Source: Cinnamomum chago (taxonomy: Eukaryota; Streptophyta; Magnoliopsida; Laurales; Lauraceae). From it: a DNA stretch of 64,000 nucleotides. Shown here in pieces: positions 2,114-22,016 of this stretch (its first letter is position 1; each line of letters begins with the position of its first letter). The stretch lies in assembly GCA_038049695.1 (NCBI GenBank), contig CP142456.1:78391422-78455421 (forward strand), in the 5' to 3' direction. The position numbers and the translations under genes were made by a program. The notes under the pieces are model-generated. The model did not search any database. It saw only the letters and a program-made list of their open reading frames with translations, and had not been told where the DNA came from.

Positions 2114-2525
2114 ATAATGATTGTTTATGGGACAGGCATAATCAGGCCCGACTTAACTTTAAAAATACAGGCCATATATCCAACCTAATCTGACAGGGGA
2201 CATACAGACATGTCAGGTCCAATCTTGCTCATCAAGTCAATTAGGCCCAAGCCCAATTAATAACAAAACACCTATATAATACACCTACAACCTGGAATGA
2301 GTTAATCCTTAGAAACCCTGAAACCCTATATTATTCATGGCGAGCATCCGGCTTTCTACCACTTAATTTAAGCCCTGTCCAAATCTTAATCGGGCCCTCT
2401 TACTTTAAAAAAATAAATATCTAAACATGACCAGAGTACTAAAACCTAGCACAAATTTGGCCCAAAGCAGTCGGGCCAAAGTCAGACCCAGGCTGGCAGG
2501 GTGGCTCAGCCCATGAACACCCCTA
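2114..2525. mobile_element. hAT-type MITE shared by duplicates A, B and C
   Basis: This 412-bp non-coding element has imperfect terminal repeats: AATAATGATTGTTTATGGG on the left, and the complement of TAGGGGTGTTCATGGG on the right. The flanks TCTGGTGA and ACGGGTGA match at 6 of 8 positions and look like an aged 8-bp target duplication. The interior is made of short GGGCCC/GGCCCGA-type motifs. The same insertion is present at 31,253-31,666 and, inverted, at 23,237-23,672, so it predates both duplications of the locus. Confidence 0.65.
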
Positions 2526-3411
2526 ACGGGTGAGAACAATCTACGCAAAGTACTGTATGAATTTGCCTGTAGGGGCCACTTAGGATCAAGGGAATTGTGG
2601 AGGAGGTTAGGAATAGAAAGATTTCAATAAGAATTAAGCGTACACAAAATATCGACTCCATCTCCACTAGGTCACAACCTACACCCTTTATGTAAGGCCC
2701 TGAGTTTGCTCATGTGAGGCCAGGGTTACATGATTGCTAGTATTGAACTCATGGCTTCACGTGAACCAGCAATGGCCAAAAACTAGACCACTTGGCCTGC
2801 AAATACACATTTATGACCTGATTGTTTCATGTAATTGAATTCCTATGAAATCTAAAACTATGTCTTCGTAAATATCTATGAATTGTTATATAAACAAAAT
2901 GAAGGAATATGACATGAATATTAAAAAATGACCATCAAGTAACCTCCCAAAGGAAATTGAATCCTGGGAAGATGGAAACGAATATCCAGCCATCATTACA
3001 GTAATTCAAATCTTAAAGGAAAGTTAAAGACCTCATCTACATCACCACCTTATATCCTTAATCCCTCACCACCTCTTTAACAATCCTTCAATGGAACTCA
3101 TCTGACCATGAATTTCTATATATTCTATGCAAAACAACAGGCCCTCGATGGTTTTCTCGTAAAGCAAAAACAGGTGAAAATGGAAAAGTACTATGAAATA
3201 CCTATATATGCATAGATTTCAATAGGTGAAAATGGAATGTATTGATTAATCAATCATCAATGTGAAAAACATCATGGATACAACTTTGGAATAGTTGAAT
3301 TGCTTGAAAATATACACGAGAAATACTAGATGGAACAACACTTTTAGGCGTCGCAGCCATGATGAGATGTAAAGGTTTCTCTCATTGCCAAATTCAGTCA
3401 CAGTAGCCTGC
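2526..3411. other. Duplicated 3' flank of DLST, present in A, B and C
   Basis: This sequence aligns with 31,667-32,553 (B) and, inverted and more diverged, with about 22,085-23,236 (C). It holds no open frame that I can support. It lies between the shared MITE and the 3' end of the DLST copies and probably contains old 3' untranslated and intergenic sequence. Confidence 0.65.
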
Positions 3412-3416
3412 AACAG

Positions 3417-5720
3417 TGTTAGGCTCCGTCCCGAGTTAATCACAATTAACTCTAGTTAATCAAGCTTAAGACTAATTAAGCTGATTTAAGTGAACTAATG
3501 GTGATTTATTGCTAAATGAAGTTGAATTAGCCTAATGTGATTAATATAGGCTTAATGAAGTAGTAACTATGATTATGAATGAATTGAATGAAAAATGAAG
3601 CTTAATTAAGCAAAAAGAAGGAATTGTGTATAAATACGGATTTATACGTATTTTGTCGAATTCGGAAACTCTTGATACTCGCATGTGTATCTCGACGAGT
3701 ACGATGATTTTCATATAAGGCTTGAATTGATTCGATGAATATTGGATCAAATGGATCTTGAGTTGACTTGAAATGTGTATGAGAGAATAAATGGGGGGTT
3801 TAATGTAAAAATTAACTTATAAGATGAGATGAACTTCATTCATCTCATCCTAAACCTAGGCAACTCCTTCCACAGCTGTTTCTTCTTCTTCTTTCTTCAA
3901 TTTTCTTCATCAAGTGTGTGGTTTAAGTGAAGTGGAGTGAAGAGGAGTTCATCATCTTCATCATCTTCTTGAGTTTTCATTGAAGTTAGAGCTTCAAAGA
4001 GTGAATTTTTATCTCAAATCCAAGCTAAGCAAAGACTAATCTTCAAACAAAGGCAAGTGCTTACATATGTTTATGTTTATTGAGGTGTTTCCATTGATTT
4101 TGATGGAAAGAATTGATGAGTTAGATGTTAGAGTGATTATGGAGTTTGACACCTTAATTAGGTTATGAATTAATATGATAGATTAGTATAATTCTGATTA
4201 GATTAAGTGGATTAGTAGTTTTGAAGTACTTTTGTATATTCATGCTAAAATGGTCAATCAGGTTCCTCACCTACCAGAAGGAAAGGGAGAAAAATCCCTT
4301 CACTGCACTGCAGGAACAAAACTCATGTTCTGTATCTCTAGTGTGGCAGGTCGACCTACCAGCAGGGGCGAGTCGACCTGGCACACTCAAGTGCCTGACC
4401 AAAATACTGTTCCATCCTTTTTCATATATAACTGTAGGTCGACCTGGGCCCTGCCAGGTCGACCTGGCCCACTGGAAAATGTGGAAAAACGTCCGGTTTT
4501 GTCTGAATTTCCGGAATTAAGAGTTTAAGCTTAGAAATTGACCATATTATTTATAGTACGAAAAATTCAGTGAGTTTTGGATTCTACGAGAACTAAGGTG
4601 AGTCTTGAGGGAAGTATGACTAGTATTAGTGCTATACCTCCATAAGTGTTAACTAGGGTTATCTTAATGCATAATCATATACGTAATGTCATCTATAATA
4701 ATCTTTGCATTAATAACCAAAGTTACACTTAGTGGTTGGTTAGAGAATTCATTTAGGATTAAACTGAGATTAATGTGAATTGTTAACGAGTCTGGCACTA
4801 CCTAGTGGTTTCCGAACTCATTATTGAATGGAATTGAATTGAAGTAAGAAATGAACAGTTACGAAAGGTAACAATGAAATGACTATTCCTACTGCAGTAG
4901 ATGAGATTGGGGTGTTCCGGAGCCCGTGGTGACACCAGTGCTCTCTGATCAAGACACTGGGAGATCCCACCTAATTGGACCGAAAGGTCATTGATTGAAA
5001 AGTCATACACGGAGAAGCCATTAATAAATATTGAACAAAATGAATGAATATGAATATGAAATGCTTCCTTTTTAGGAAGATCTGAATGAAGTTGAAACCA
5101 ATGCTAGTGTAGTTGCCAGTATTATTATCATTGTTATTTGTATTTGATATTGATTGCATAGAACTGTTAAGCAATGAATTGTAGGAATTATGAACATGCT
5201 ATAAATATATGTATACCTTGTTGAACCGTCGTGTTCACGGTATTACTGATGATGTTACAGGCTCAGTTGTCCGTACCGGTCCCTCCGAGACCGTCCCGCC
5301 AGCGGAGGAGGCCCATTCGCTACCTCCAGGAGGTCTAGCCGAATGGACATGATTGGAGAGCGCATAACATGGAATATTTTGGAAACTTTTTAGGAATTGT
5401 TTTATATATTCATTTTTGGTATTGTAAGTAAGTCCCCTGCATTGTATTTTAAATATGCAGTGGTTGATATTAGGAGAACTGGAATTGTGTAAAGTGAACT
5501 TTACACTTGAAAGTAAAGAATATGATTCATTTTGATTAAATGGTTGTCAATGTATATTATTTGTATATTCCGCACAATTGTACATTGACAGGTACGTATG
5601 CAAGATCCTTTGTAGATTCGATTAACTTCGGTTAATTCGGGTTTACGGGAGTAAGTATTATTAACATCGCGACTCGGGGGTTAACCTTAATGACTCTGAT
5701 CTCGGGTCCGGGTCGTGACA
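3417..5720 (+). mobile_element. Solo LTR of a long-LTR Ty3/gypsy-type element (fossil)
   Basis: This 2,304-bp insertion is absent from duplicate B. It starts TGTTAGGC, ends GTCGTGACA, and is flanked by AACAG and AACAA, a near-perfect 5-bp target duplication. No internal coding region or second LTR is seen, so it looks like a solo LTR. Its start resembles the reverse complement of the end of the insertion at 18,394-22,011 (TGTTACACCCCGACCCAAT), which suggests one family in opposite orientation. A cluster of GGTCGACC-core palindromes lies at 4,348-4,467. The length and TG/CA ends suggest a gypsy lineage with long LTRs (Tekay/Del-like), which is inference. Confidence 0.72.
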
Positions 5721-11956: not shown

Positions 11957-12415
11957 TAGGGCTGCACAAAACCGGACCGGACCGCAAAACCGGACCGGAC
12001 CGGTTTTGAAAAACCGGTTATATCCGGTCCGGTCCGGTCCGGACCTTTTAAAAACCGGTCCGGACCGGACCGGATTAATAAATTTTTTTTTTTTAATTTT
12101 TTTAATACAAAACTTTAAGTATAAAAAATTCCCAAGTCAAATACCATAGTGAAATCGAAGATCTAGTTTCTTACATTTGGAAAAAGAGGCAGGAAATTGA
12201 CTGAAAATGAAAAAAAAAAAAAAAACTTAAAAAAAAAAAAAAAACTAATAAAACCGGTCCGGACCACTTAAGTGGTCCAGACCGGACCGTTTTGGACTGG
12301 ACCGGACCACTTATAAGTGGTCCGGTCCGGTCCTCTCATTTAAGCCGGACCGGAAATCCGGTCCGACCGGATTCCGGTCCAAAAACCGGACCGGATTTCC
12401 GGTTGGGCAGCCCTA
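11957..12415. mobile_element. 459-bp hAT-type element with ACCGGACCGG subterminal arrays
   Basis: The element is inserted in the copia copy. Its ends are TAGGGCTGC and GGGCAGCCCTA, inverted over 9 bp. It is flanked by a perfect 8-bp target duplication, CCTTGAGG (11,949-11,956 and 12,416-12,423), the hAT signature. Dense runs of overlapping CCGGTC/GACCGG hexamers fill both subterminal regions around an AT-rich, A-tract core. It has no coding capacity. It shares ends and core pieces with the larger copy at 20,617-21,438. Confidence 0.92.
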
Positions 12416-14012
12416 CCTTGAGGGTCTTTGGGTGTGCTTGCTATCCTTGGCTTCGTCCCTATCACAAAACAAACTTGAGCCACGCACTAAACAATGCATT
12501 TTCATTGGATACAGCCTCAATTACAAGGGATATAGGTGTCTCGATGTATCCACAGGCAGAGTCTTTCTATCTAGACACGTCATTTTTAATGAAACTCACT
12601 TCCCTTACGAAGCTTCTAATGCTCATAATGCTTTTCCTTCTTCTGTCCCCAATCCCTTTCCCTTCTCATTATGGTTCAGGCCTGGCATTCCTTCATCTCC
12701 CTCCATTTTAGGACCTTACCAGTCCATTGCTTCTACATCAGTTATTCCCGCCTCTCCTATTGTTCCCCCACTTTATATCACTAGGTTCCATCCCACTGCT
12801 TTAGTCCACAGACAATCCACTACTCCTCAACAACCTACTACAGTTCCTTTACCCTCTTCCAGTTCCTCTGTAGCAGTTTCCTCTACATCTCCCTCTACAG
12901 CTTCCACTCAGCCTTGATTCAGACAACAGCCCTTGCCTTCTCCTATTCTTTGAGACCACACTGTAACTGAACCACATTCTCCTGACCCTGCCCTTTCCCC
13001 CTTACCATTATCCTCAAATAGGCATCCAATGGTCACTCGCTCCAAAGATGGCATTAGCAAGAAGGTCTTTTTCTCCACTAAGCATCATCCTACAGTTCCA
13101 TCAAATGACTATTATGATGCAGCAGAACCCTCCACTTATACAGAAGCTTCCAAATCTGTTGTCTGGCGTCAAGCTATGTCAGAGGAATTCTCAACTTTAC
13201 AAAGACAGGGGACTTGGTCATTAGTTCCTTTCTCTCCAGACAAACATGTAGTAGGATGTTGTTGGGTATTCAAGATCCAGCATAAACCTGATGGGTCTGT
13301 TGCTCACTATAAGGCCCGGTCAGTTGCTAAAGGCTTCCACCAATAACATGGAGTTGAAAACAATGAAACCTTCAGTTCAGTAGTCAAGCAAGCTATCATC
13401 AGAGTCATTCTCTCCCTTGCTGTGTTCTATAATTGGACCATTCAACAACTTGATGTTACAAATGCCTTCTTGCATGGGATACTTCAGGAAGACATTTATA
13501 TGGTTCAACCCCAAGGGTTTGTGGATCCTTGCTCTCCTCACCACCTCTGCAAGCTCCATAAATCTCTCTATGGATTGAAGCAGGCGCCTAGAGCTTGGTT
13601 TGAGAGATTCTCTAATTGTCTTCTGAGCCTGGGCTTTCTCAATACCTATGCTGACCCATCTCTGTTTATCAAACATCATCAATCCTCTATTACATTGGTC
13701 TTGGTTTATGTTGATGATCTCCTTATTACCGGGAACAATTCCATCTACATTTCATCCTTAATTCGACAGTTAAGTATGGTCTTTGAGATGAAACACTTGG
13801 GGGATTTACATCACTTTCTAGGCATTGAGGTTATCAGAACATCTCAAGGTCCCTTTCTTTCGCAGAGTAAATATGCATATGACCTTTTACTGAAAACCTC
13901 CATGTTAGGATGCAAGCCCTATGGCTCTCCCTGTAATTACAAGTTGGTTGCTGCTCTAGCTGCATCACTTCCTCTCCCAGATCCCACACTTTATCGTAGC
14001 ATTACAGGAGCT

Positions 14013-14927
14013 CAGTGGCGGAGCTATGTTAGGGCCCGGGGGGGCCAGCCTTTGAAAAGCTATTTTAAAACACCAAATTGGGCCCCCCCAAGGTAAAACT
14101 AGGAAATGTGTTAAAAGGAGAAACCAAGAGATGCATTGGAACCGGGTGCTCTAAAACATCAAGTTTCTGATATTCATTAATCCAAATTAATCCAAGATTC
14201 GGTAGTTTCTCATAATCTAATGGTGGGCTCAGGCCCTCTTATAAAATCAGGAGGTTTGTCTAGTAGGGTCCCACTTGGGTAATTCTGAATCTAATAAGAT
14301 GGAAAGCCTAAATAACAACCGACTCTTTTGACCAAGAGAGAAACAAGGAAGTCTGAGATTTCAAGTTAGTTTTTAAAGAAAGAGATTTCGATTCTCTCCT
14401 ATTTATGAAATCTCCATGTCAGCAAAGAAGAAAGAATTTCATTGCGAAAACAAGGGGCGTTTTTTTTACAAAATGCCCAGGGCGTTTTGTACCCCCCCCC
14501 CCCCAATATATATATAGGGTCACACTACAAAACTCCCTGGGCGTTATTTGCAAGAAAACGCCTCTTCTTCTAAGCCTATGAAAGTGCCATGCCATTCAAT
14601 TTAAATAAAGATAATGAGATTTAACACAAATGGTAACACAAATGGCAAGTTAGAGATTTGTCTTGTGGCATCCATCATATTTTTTCACATGGCATCGATT
14701 ATGTACGTTATGTGTTCAATTATATGGTGGGACTCGCTCATATTAAAATAAGATTTGAAGGATAAATCCATGTAGGAGTCAGGATTCAAGATGAATGATT
14801 TGGGTTATCATCATGTGAACCCACAGTGGGACCCTCTTATTTTAATATGATAGTTACAATAATTAGTGAAATAAAATTTTATTCAAGTTTTGGCCCCCCC
14901 AAAGATGAAATCCTGGCTCCGCCCCTG
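14013..14927. mobile_element. 915-bp hAT-type element with CAGTGGCGGAGC ends
   Basis: This second hAT insertion in the copia copy has termini CAGTGGCGGAGC and GCTCCGCCCCTG, the widespread plant hAT end type. A perfect 8-bp target duplication, CAGGAGCT, lies at 14,005-14,012 and 14,928-14,935. Just inside both ends lie C/G homopolymer motifs of the GGCCCCCCC type. It has no transposase frame. Inside, 14,454-14,572 is an imperfect hairpin (GGGCGTTTT... against ...AAAACGCC) with a poly-C run in the loop, possibly a smaller nested MITE. Confidence 0.92.
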
Positions 14928-18322: not shown

Positions 18323-20616
18323 TGTGTGAACAAAAGCCACTGGATTACTACTTGCAATCCATGTCTTTTGATGGTATACTTCAATTCTTGTTGTGTCACA
18401 TCCTGGTCACAAATCACCCTGGCTTAGTGTAATCTCCGAGGTGTAATATATATACTCTCATGCGTTGTACTTATCTCGAGCCAAATACAACACACGAATG
18501 AGAGAAAATAACTTTCCATACACGTGAGTTAAATCTCATTAGAACGCTTCAATAGCAATTAATCATAGCGGAAGCTATAATTCATTGGGTGAGAGTATCA
18601 ATTCCCATTCAGACTATTTAACATTTCAAGTTTAATTCAAAAGAATTTTACATTTATATACATTGCTTTACAAAAGAGGGTGTATAAAAGAGCTCTAAAC
18701 AACATTAGCAAAAGTATAAACAAAAGAATAATTAAACCTTAGTGTGGCCCACGCAAAAAAGGGCTAGCCACACTCTAAGGAAACTCTAAAGAAAGGTCAT
18801 CACGCACTCCGAGGAAGATCACTAAGCGGTTACGGGCTCAGGCCATTCTTCTATTCCTGAAGGTATCTCTGAGGTAACCTTCTCTTCCTCCGAGGCCACA
18901 GCTGAGCTTTTGACACCAAGAATAGTATCATCAATACGACGATTAAGCAAGTATAGGCAATGATAAGGAATTACACAATGTATCAAATTAAATTTAAGAC
19001 GAATAAATTAATAGATGTCAATGATGAGTATCAATTAGGCAAACTGTACAAAATTGAATAATTCATGTTTGTGAGTCAAATAAAATGAAAACATACTTAT
19101 TGGCTACTACCTTAAGCTCATCTCAAAAGAGAGCAAATCTAGTTGGAATGTCACAAGCGGCCCGACCAAAGGCTAGCTGGCTACTCGGGTCTGGAGTTCC
19201 GGTGCTCCAAATGACTTACTGTAGTGGCCTCGAATAACTAAACCAAGTTCAGCCCCGTCGGGTATCACAGGGTCGAAGCTAAGTAGTGTCGACTCGATCG
19301 AATCAAATAAAAAAAATCAAGTAATAATCAATCATAACCAGACTTGAGTAAGTTTGCATTTTTACTTATTCATAATCAAATTGAATATAAATCACATTTC
19401 CCAAACACTTACTCAATCCATATTTTCGACGAATACTGAACCGGTATATAATACTGAAGTTACGAATAGAATGTAAACAATCGGACATCGACAAACACTA
19501 GTGAAGTAACTAATCTACTAATCGGACTTGATTGTCAATAAGAAATTATACTCCAATATGAAATGTTGTAATTTTAAGGAATCAAAATATTTTACGAACC
19601 AATACTAAACTATTGATTTTAGTCTTTCACCGTCCAATACAATGTAAGTTTGGGAAAATCAACATATTACTACCTTATTAGGTGTCACTATTATGAGAAG
19701 TACATTGAGTTTCCAAACTAACCCTCATGGCGTAGTGTTAGACTAATGAATACCCATTGGACCAAGTAATAGGGTCATCGGTTCCATTTTAAAGTCATAA
19801 AGGTCTTAAGGCTCCTAAATCCTATGAAAACAAGGGTATGCATCTCAATTATCTATTTGGAATAATTAAGAGGGGTTATGATAGGTTAAGGGTGGAATTT
19901 CACCCTAAAAATTGGGTCGGAAAAAAGGTCACCTTACAGCTTCAAGTTCGTTCGAGCGAGGTCTTCAGAAGTGTGGTCGCTCGAGCGGAGCCATGTTCGA
20001 TCGAGCAGACCCATCCAGAGGGGTGGACGATCGAGCCATCCTTTTGTTTGCTCGATCCATAGCTTTAAATGGAGGTTCGCTCGAGCGAACTGTCTAGAAT
20101 TTCTGCTTTCAAAATTCCTCATGGTTTCTTTCCCCCATTCATATCTAATTCTCTCCCACTACAGAACCTGCACAAATGGAGTCTTCTCACTCCCATTTAC
20201 ATCATAAATAACCCATTCCATCTAACCCATCCATGAAAACCATAAACACACTAATCCATTTATTTATTGAAGACAGAATCATTAGAAGGAACTTCATTGG
20301 AATCAAACAAAATCAATCATTATGCAAATCCAAATTAGTGCTTATACTTGCCTCTATTAAGAGCTTTTCCAAGCTTTCCAACTCAGACCCAAGAAAAACC
20401 CTAAATGCTCAAACCCTAATCACCAAAATCATGCAAAGAAAGGAAATGAATGTGCATGTATGATCTACCCTAAGAGCCTTTTGTCTCTAATGTAGCTCAA
20501 GATACAAAAACAAAGGGGTTACGGCTCTTACGTACCTTAACAAGGAACCCTAGTTGGGAGGAGTAGGGAATGAAGAAAATAGATTCTTGATCCCAAAGGT
20601 GGGAATAAGGTGAAGA

Positions 20617-21438
20617 TAGGGTTGAACAGAACCGGACCGCAAAACCGGACCGGAACGGACCGGATTTGCGGTCTTTACAGCACAAATCCTGTCCGGTCCG
20701 GACTGGATTCGAAGGACCGGTTATATCCGGTCCGGTCCGGTCCAGACCTTTTAAAAACCGGTCTGGACCGGACCGGACCGGATTAATAATAAATAAATAT
20801 TTTTTAATTTTTTTAATACAAAATTCCAAAGTCAAATAGCTACTAGCAGCCATCTACTGCTGTCTGCTCTGTGGGATCATGAATGGGCCTGCTGGGTGCA
20901 TTCTGAAGGTTTCTCAAACAACGCAGCGTAGATAGTTTAGATGGCCCAGATCAGATTCAGAAACCATTCGGTTTGGGCCCACAACGAAGTCGAGCTCTTC
21001 CTGGATCTTTCGTTGGACATCTGGGTGCTTGATCACCTCCGCCATGGCCCACTCATTAGTCACAGAGGAAGTGTCCGTGGCCGCAGCTATCATGTCCTGC
21101 CCAATCCACTATACCATCATGAGCAAAATCATTTGAATCTTTCTACAAAGAAAAATGTAGCATAAGCAATGGGCCAGATTGGCCCATTGGGCTTCTCACC
21201 TTTAATTATTTCTGGTTTAGTGGCCCGTAGCTTTATCGATGGTTGGTATTGGGCCCATAGATAATCAAGCCTGTTACCTATTAATGTCGGAAAACTAGAC
21301 ATATTTAGGTGTAATTTAGATGTGAGTTGAAAATGAAAAAAAAAAAAAAAAAAACTTAGAAAAAAAAAAATGAAACCGGTATGGACCACTTAAGTGGTCC
21401 AGACCGGTCCGGTCCGGAAATCCGGTTGTGCAGCCCTA
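20617..21438. mobile_element. 822-bp hAT-type element carrying a captured P450 fragment
   Basis: Same family as 11,957-12,415: ends TAGGGTTGAAC and TGTGCAGCCCTA, ACCGGACC subterminal arrays on both sides, and a shared motif GGACCACTTAAGTGGTCC near the right end. A perfect 8-bp target duplication, GGTGAAGA, lies at 20,609-20,616 and 21,439-21,446. It is longer than its relative because of an extra internal segment, which includes the P450-derived piece at 20,866-21,096. It has no transposase frame, so it would have depended on an autonomous hAT. It is nested in the solo LTR and therefore younger than that insertion. Confidence 0.93.
20866..21096 (-). pseudogene. Captured CYP703-like cytochrome P450 fragment inside a hAT element
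   Basis: On the minus strand this reads as an uninterrupted P450 segment except for one stop. It holds the I-helix oxygen-binding region DMIAAATDTS, then NEWAMAEVIKHP, EELDFVVGPNRMV, ESDLGHLNYLRCVV, and the K-helix ExxR as ETFR followed by MHPAGPF. From memory this pattern matches CYP703, an anther fatty-acid in-chain hydroxylase used in sporopollenin synthesis. The codon before ETFR is TGA where an Arg or Lys is expected. The left edge follows TTGGGCAG, which looks like an intron acceptor, suggesting genomic capture. The heme-binding Cys region and the N-terminus are absent, so no function is expected. Confidence 0.85.
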
Positions 21439-22016
21439 GGTGAAGAAGATGAAGATGGAGATGACAATGGGTCCAACTTTAGCTCCTAAGGCACTTGTAC
21501 TCACTCTAGCAGTGATTGAAGGAGAAGAGGATTGGAGGAGAAGAGGAGAAGAGGAGAAGAGAGAGAGTAGAGAGAAAAGAAATGGAAAGGGAAAGAAATA
21601 AGAGGATAGGATTGTATATAAAAAGGGGTAAGGTGCCATTTTGCAAAAAAGTCCATCAACATAGCCTATTATCATTTTAAGTCAAATGAGGGTCCAATTA
21701 CTAAATGGTTGGTCAAATGGAGTAGGTTCTAATATAAAAATCGATATACTCATCAAAATATACGCGATGATGCCAAAATGACATACAAACTATGCAAAAT
21801 GCATAAATTGATAATTACGAAAAAGTCATTGACTCTATTTAACCGAGTTGACTCTATTCCAACTCACCTATTCAAGATTCAAGACTCGACTAACTCAGTC
21901 TATAGGGGTCAGTCAACCCTAATTATCATACTTAGTAGATAAACACAATTAATTTATCTAAAATTCACTTAATTAGTACTAATCAGGGTTTAATTGGGTC
22001 GGGGTGTAACATGTTG

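Follow-up and report, generated by a model that had tools for sequence, protein, structure and literature searches.

A non-autonomous hAT transposon of 822 bp that carries a piece of a CYP703-type cytochrome P450 gene between its ends (a Pack-hAT) was identified at positions 20,617-21,438 (plus strand) of the window, the 64,000-nucleotide stretch of Cinnamomum chago DNA analysed here (C6:78,391,422-78,455,421 of a genome of 1.06 Gb in 14 contigs). The CYP703 DNA was very probably captured by a hAT element and then spread with it. The donor gene, two relatives with transposase domains, both joins, five sister copies and a related unoccupied site were all found in one genome, which makes this an unusually complete example of a hAT taking up host gene DNA. 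A sequence-only reading of the window had proposed that a CYP703 fragment was captured by a hAT, and these findings bear it out.

The element and its hAT relatives

The 822-bp element has the ends TAGGGTTG...CAGCCCTA and is flanked by the target-site duplication GGTGAAGA at 20,609-20,616 and 21,439-21,446, the left and right copies matching at 8/8 positions, so the earlier description of a non-autonomous hAT with intact ends and a perfect 8-bp duplication holds at this size. The strand assigned to it is the one on which the full-length relatives encode transposase. Two such relatives were found. The C4 element (4,995 bp) is flanked by the perfect duplication CTTTCAGC (8/8) and contains the domains hAT-like_RNase-H and Dimer_Tnp_hAT. 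The C5 element (4,389 bp) is flanked by the perfect duplication GTCCCAGA (8/8) and contains zf-BED, hAT-like_RNase-H and Dimer_Tnp_hAT in separate pieces. The terminal inverted repeats TAGGGCTG...CAGCCCTA of the 822-bp element are shared with both. The 8-bp duplication, the shared terminal inverted repeats and the relatives with hAT transposase domains place the element in the hAT superfamily.

Element bases 1-256 and 674-822 match the end regions of the C4 and C5 hATs, and the CYP703 piece replaces their interior. The hAT 5' end and adjoining interior (20,617-20,872, plus strand) share homology with the full-length elements over ~260-280 bp at their start. In the initial 226-228 bp the identity is 90% to C4 and 88% to C5, and over the following 29 bp it is 97% and 93%, respectively. 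The hAT 3' end (21,290-21,438, plus strand) is homologous to the final ~210-230 bp of those elements, with 92% identity over its first 101 bp (C4) and 122 bp (C5) and shorter matches beyond. The first 52-56 bp of this 3' part were also detected at 33 further places in a DNA search (among the best 40 of 91 candidates). The element contains no transposase, its interior being composed of parent end regions and CYP703 only. Host gene DNA between the ends, a donor that is still present and the lack of a transposase of its own are the features of a Pack-TYPE element, here a Pack-hAT.

The left-end pattern of the hAT family, 23 bases searched with at most two mismatches, occurs 428 times in this genome, versus 0 times for the reversed control. 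A 459-bp relative lies within the window at 11,957-12,415 (plus strand) and is flanked by a perfect duplication, CCTTGAGG. Its sequence agrees with the family ends and gave no match to the P450 piece, whose absence had been noted from the letters alone. This relative apparently lies within a Ty1/copia element, as judged by eye, with RVT_2 downstream at 13,422-14,096.

The insertion site of the 822-bp element (window 20,400-20,616 and 21,447-21,700) is a diverged dispersed repeat that gave 40 matches at 67-100% identity, two of them the site itself, as the best 40 of 63 candidates. A paralogous unoccupied site at C12:21,950,664-21,950,880 has a single copy of the equivalent octamer, GATGAAGA.

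The captured segment and its donor gene

The captured DNA occupies positions 20,870-21,291 of the window and corresponds to 420 bp of the gene, of which 193 bp are intronic and 227 bp belong to exon 2. The corresponding donor segment, C7:42,623,206-42,623,625, matches element bases 254-675 only, with 96% DNA identity over 422 query bases. An identity of 96% at the DNA level to an intact gene at another genomic location shows that the P450 match is not due to chance. Relative to the direction of the transposase, the insert lies in antisense.

The exon part (20,870-21,096, minus strand; aligned to the donor) corresponds to the opening 227 bp of exon 2 of CYP703, from the I-helix motif AATDTS to MHPAGPFMIP. 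The minus-strand translation of 20,866-21,096, with X at the stop, gives a Pfam p450 match with an E value of 5.2e-22. The stop is an in-frame TGA at 20,914-20,916 (minus strand) that is CGA in the gene. This change is private to the window copy, which has A at a site where the gene and the other five copies have G. The sequence-only reading had placed a P450 segment with one TGA on the minus strand of 20,866-21,096. The segment reads as it described, and the best match is a P450 and not another protein. Its edges require correction, as the captured DNA spans 20,870-21,291 and the final residues QS are encoded by hAT bases.

The remainder of the insert (21,097-21,291, minus strand) aligns to the 3'-terminal 193 bp of the CYP703 intron, with 195 bp in the window copy owing to a 2-bp insertion. 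It includes the splice acceptor AG at 21,097-21,098 (minus strand), which is present in five of the six copies and lost in one of the two copies on C2 (C2a). The acceptor suspected earlier at the edge of the P450 segment is genuine, and the intron beyond it (21,097-21,291) had been overlooked. As the element contains 193 bp of intron together with a genuine acceptor, the capture was from genomic DNA, which had also been suggested. The presence of the intron rules out mRNA as the source. An additional captured upstream exon was considered and rejected, since a 73-aa reading of the intron has no Pfam match at an E value of 0.001 and the exon 1 donor site is 1.7 kb away.

The donor is an intact P450 gene on the minus strand of C7:42,622,794-42,626,074 that encodes 521 aa (Pfam p450, 327 bits). 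Exon 1 (C7:42,625,148-42,626,074) and exon 2 (C7:42,622,794-42,623,432) are separated by a GT-AG intron of 1,715 bp, all on the minus strand, with the splice sites assigned by eye and by reading frame. The next-best other P450 in the genome shows 57% identity over the segment (best 150 of 310 candidates), and the donor is therefore alone of its kind among the matches found. Membership of the family takes more than 40% identity to a named CYP703. A comparison of the donor with a provisional Arabidopsis CYP703A2 sequence gave 74% identity over 480 positions, a value that serves as a lead only. Both AATDTS (I-helix) and PERH (clade signature) are present in the donor. The available part of PMC8839735 gives these two signatures and a structure of two exons and one intron as characteristic of CYP703, and by these published features the donor is a CYP703 gene. 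It further resembles the family in being the only such gene found here, CYP703 being described in the accessible text of PMC6162277 as a family with a single member, the knockout of which gives male-sterile plants in Arabidopsis, rice and maize. The mobile piece differs from CYP703 proper in that it is a fragment without start codon, heme site or natural stop.

Joins, copies and the route of capture

The left join contains a 3-bp microhomology, TGT, at 20,870-20,872 between the hAT interior and CYP703 exon 2, and it is the same in all six copies. The parents and the donor were compared at this point. The parent reads GCTCTGTAG, the donor CATGTGGG and the element GCTCTGTGGG, with TGT common to all. 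Filler DNA at this join was considered and rejected, as the relatives carry the bases concerned. The right join contains a 2-bp microhomology, GA, at 21,290-21,291 between the CYP703 intron and the hAT, at the same place in all six copies. Here the donor reads GTCTGATG, the parent AAGAAAAC and four copies of the element GTCTGAAAAC, with GA in common; the window copy and the C12 copy each differ by one base just beside GA.

The six insert-bearing copies are located on C6 (the window copy), C2 (two copies, C2a and C2b), C12, C7 and C4. These six copies and the one gene are the only long matches, both for the whole element (best 40 of 626 candidates) and for the interior (best 40 of 91). The search for other copies with the same ends that had been proposed earlier found the piece inside the same element boundaries in 6/6 copies. 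The target duplications match at 8/8 positions in three copies and at 7/8 in the other three. Because both joins are common to the six copies, a single capture was followed by amplification. Six substitutions relative to the donor are also common to all six copies, and the distance between copy and donor ranges from 1.9 to 4.7%. The possibility that an independent P450 pseudogene or other insertion came to lie in a hAT by accident is compatible with the window copy taken by itself and found no other support. The same insert, joins and boundaries in all six copies at separate sites refute it, and its probability is negligible. In the surroundings of these copies, a peroxidase-like coding sequence (Pfam peroxidase; locus L061, about 2,300-3,831 and 4,297-5,174) lies ~0.5 kb upstream of the C7 copy, and a histone H3-like gene (Pfam Histone; locus L063, 203-914) is located ~3.6 kb from one of the C2 copies.

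The joins bear on how cut-and-paste transposons acquire host DNA. A gap-repair model has been proposed for Ac/Ds elements (as cited in the available text of PMC2213677), and a gap-repair step from a foreign template is the probable route here, which we infer from its products and not from the repair itself. A full-length hAT would have lost its interior, and 420 bp of the CYP703 locus would have been copied into the gap. This copying may have taken place while an excision gap was being repaired, the template being switched at the 3-bp and 2-bp microhomologies. Against this reading, by our own estimate overlaps of at least 3 bp are expected at ~5% and of at least 2 bp at ~16% of random joins.

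A different route, in which two neighbouring hAT insertions flanked a CYP703 segment and were then mobilised as one unit, has been proposed for Pack-type elements from rice and maize data, and hAT examples are mentioned in the available sections of PMC8903248. Such a capture could have left no trace. However, no parent-like hAT sequence was found in the 9.9 kb around the donor by comparison with both full-length relatives, and each join sets parent interior directly against CYP703, with no leftover inner element end. Capture by flanking insertions is accordingly considered unlikely, and the joins appear to fit template switching in gap repair better, without proving it. The maize Ds elements attributed to abortive gap repair (as cited in the consulted part of PMC2213677) are similar in being internally deleted derivatives of a full-length element, whereas in the present case the gap would have received 420 bp from an unlinked gene.

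After the single capture the chimera spread, and its copies later decayed, with cytosine methylation as the probable cause. Transposase from full-length relatives presumably recognises the retained ends and moves the element; the transposase domain pieces of the C4 and C5 relatives lie in several frames, which counts against this explanation. The exon frame is open in the C4 and C7 copies, contains an in-frame TGA in the window copy and C2b, and is frameshifted in C2a and C12, so that a stop or frameshift is present in 4/6 copies. The open frame in the other two is not taken as a sign of selection. Among the private changes, 26/33 are C>T or G>A when counted per copy, with changes shared by two copies counted twice, and 23/30 when counted by distinct site. 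These 26 changes are distributed over the CG, CHG and CHH contexts as 7, 12 and 7, against an expectation, based on the available cytosines, of 3.1, 5.3 and 17.6 (p 5e-5). The count omits alignment columns 81-98 of the C12 copy, which are misaligned by a small indel; its 4.7% distance includes them. The pattern is what methylation at CG and CHG sites would be expected to leave and suggests that the copies have been methylated, in a small sample and with CG sites that mutate fast anyway.

Further captures, known systems and possible effects

Other captures by the same hAT family were surveyed in 20 loci (~1.1 kb each) fetched from 44 listed places with the exact left end. Long inserts between both family ends were identified in two of the 20 loci (L067 and L081). 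Six of the 20, these two included, show no closing duplication in the sequence fetched. The other four of these six (L069, L070, L074 and L082) end in 505-768 bp unlike the two relatives. Locus L066 was left out of the duplication test, its left flank lying outside the fetched sequence.

The second capture (L084/L081, C5:13,374,128 onward) contains an insert of ~840 bp that is present at nine places, itself included, at 97-100% identity (best 40 of 81 candidates). Its likely donor is C9:6,095,426-6,096,226, at 94% identity in the same search (best 40 of 81 candidates), where inspection of 1,051 bp by eye found no clear coding frame. The third capture (L087/L067, C1:52,225,089, minus strand) contains 763 bp, and the near-full insert is present at four places including itself (best 40 of 132 candidates). 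From about base 53 on, the L067 insert also matches 17 other places at 87-94% (again among the best 40 of 132 candidates), and this part is a dispersed repeat. Perfect duplications were found at L084, L085, L087 and L089, and none was found by the patterns used at L086 and L088, two of the six other-capture loci. Outside DNA has thus entered the family on at least three occasions; for the second and third captures, the direction of transfer was less closely tested than for CYP703.

Pack-MULEs and Helitrons belong to superfamilies other than that of the 822-bp hAT and differ from it in their ends and in the length of their target duplications. Their likeness to it lies in the transduplication of gene fragments, as described in the accessible parts of reviews including PMC13317346. 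The capture of genes by hATs is already known, and the CYP703 case is a clean, well-resolved further example. The earlier statement that transduplication is less common for hATs goes beyond the evidence. In grapevine, transduplication is common in elements of every superfamily, hATs included, according to the available text of PMC2528002, and Pack-hATs have been described in maize in a study that also surveyed rice (Gisby and Catoni 2022, PMC8903248, as far as its available sections go). The maize Pack-hATs presented there are likewise non-autonomous hATs with an 8-bp duplication and host gene DNA, whereas the donor, the full-length relatives, both joins and six copies are resolved here for one case in a different genome. 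Copies of grapevine Hatvine-6 (PMC2528002, available text) share hAT ends, while their interiors vary and match introns and exons of genes. They differ in sharing transposase coding sequence, of which the 822-bp element keeps none. A search of open-licence literature by title gave no title on the capture of CYP703 by a hAT or other transposable element.

The copies might act in trans, their transcripts or small RNAs silencing or tuning CYP703 in anthers. The small-RNA effect suggested by the sequence-only reading also goes further than the evidence, and action in trans is judged very unlikely. In its favour, 144/207 of the 21-mers of the donor exon have an exact counterpart in one or more copies, so that the gene could be matched by small RNAs made from them. 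The antisense orientation of the insert relative to the transposase and the mutation pattern, which suggests that the copies are methylated at CG and CHG sites, also speak for it. Captured sequences also yield small RNAs in maize Helitrons, Pack-MULEs and Sireviruses, according to the parts available of a 2026 review (PMC13317346). Against it, the donor stays intact, methylated copies need not imply an effect on the gene, and carriers that silence essential donors may be removed by selection, a point also made in the available text of that review (PMC13317346). The wider proposal, that a repeatedly capturing hAT family has turned CYP703 into a dispersed antisense set of six copies whose small RNAs in anthers would tune, or conflict with, the single pollen-wall gene, is likewise regarded as highly improbable. 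If true, it would link transposon copy number to male fertility. The donor family is needed for male fertility and is usually single-copy (PMC6162277, accessible text), which makes this a sharp place to test for small RNAs directed from captured copies to their donor.

The captured exon could also have been retained for coding, for instance by being spliced into new host transcripts. The open frame in the C4 and C7 copies, the acceptor AG retained in 5/6 copies and the position of the C7 copy ~0.5 kb downstream of a peroxidase-like coding sequence are compatible with such retention, but the stops and frameshifts in 4/6 copies argue against it, and it is hardly to be expected. Most likely, the CYP703 piece is a passenger without a protein product.
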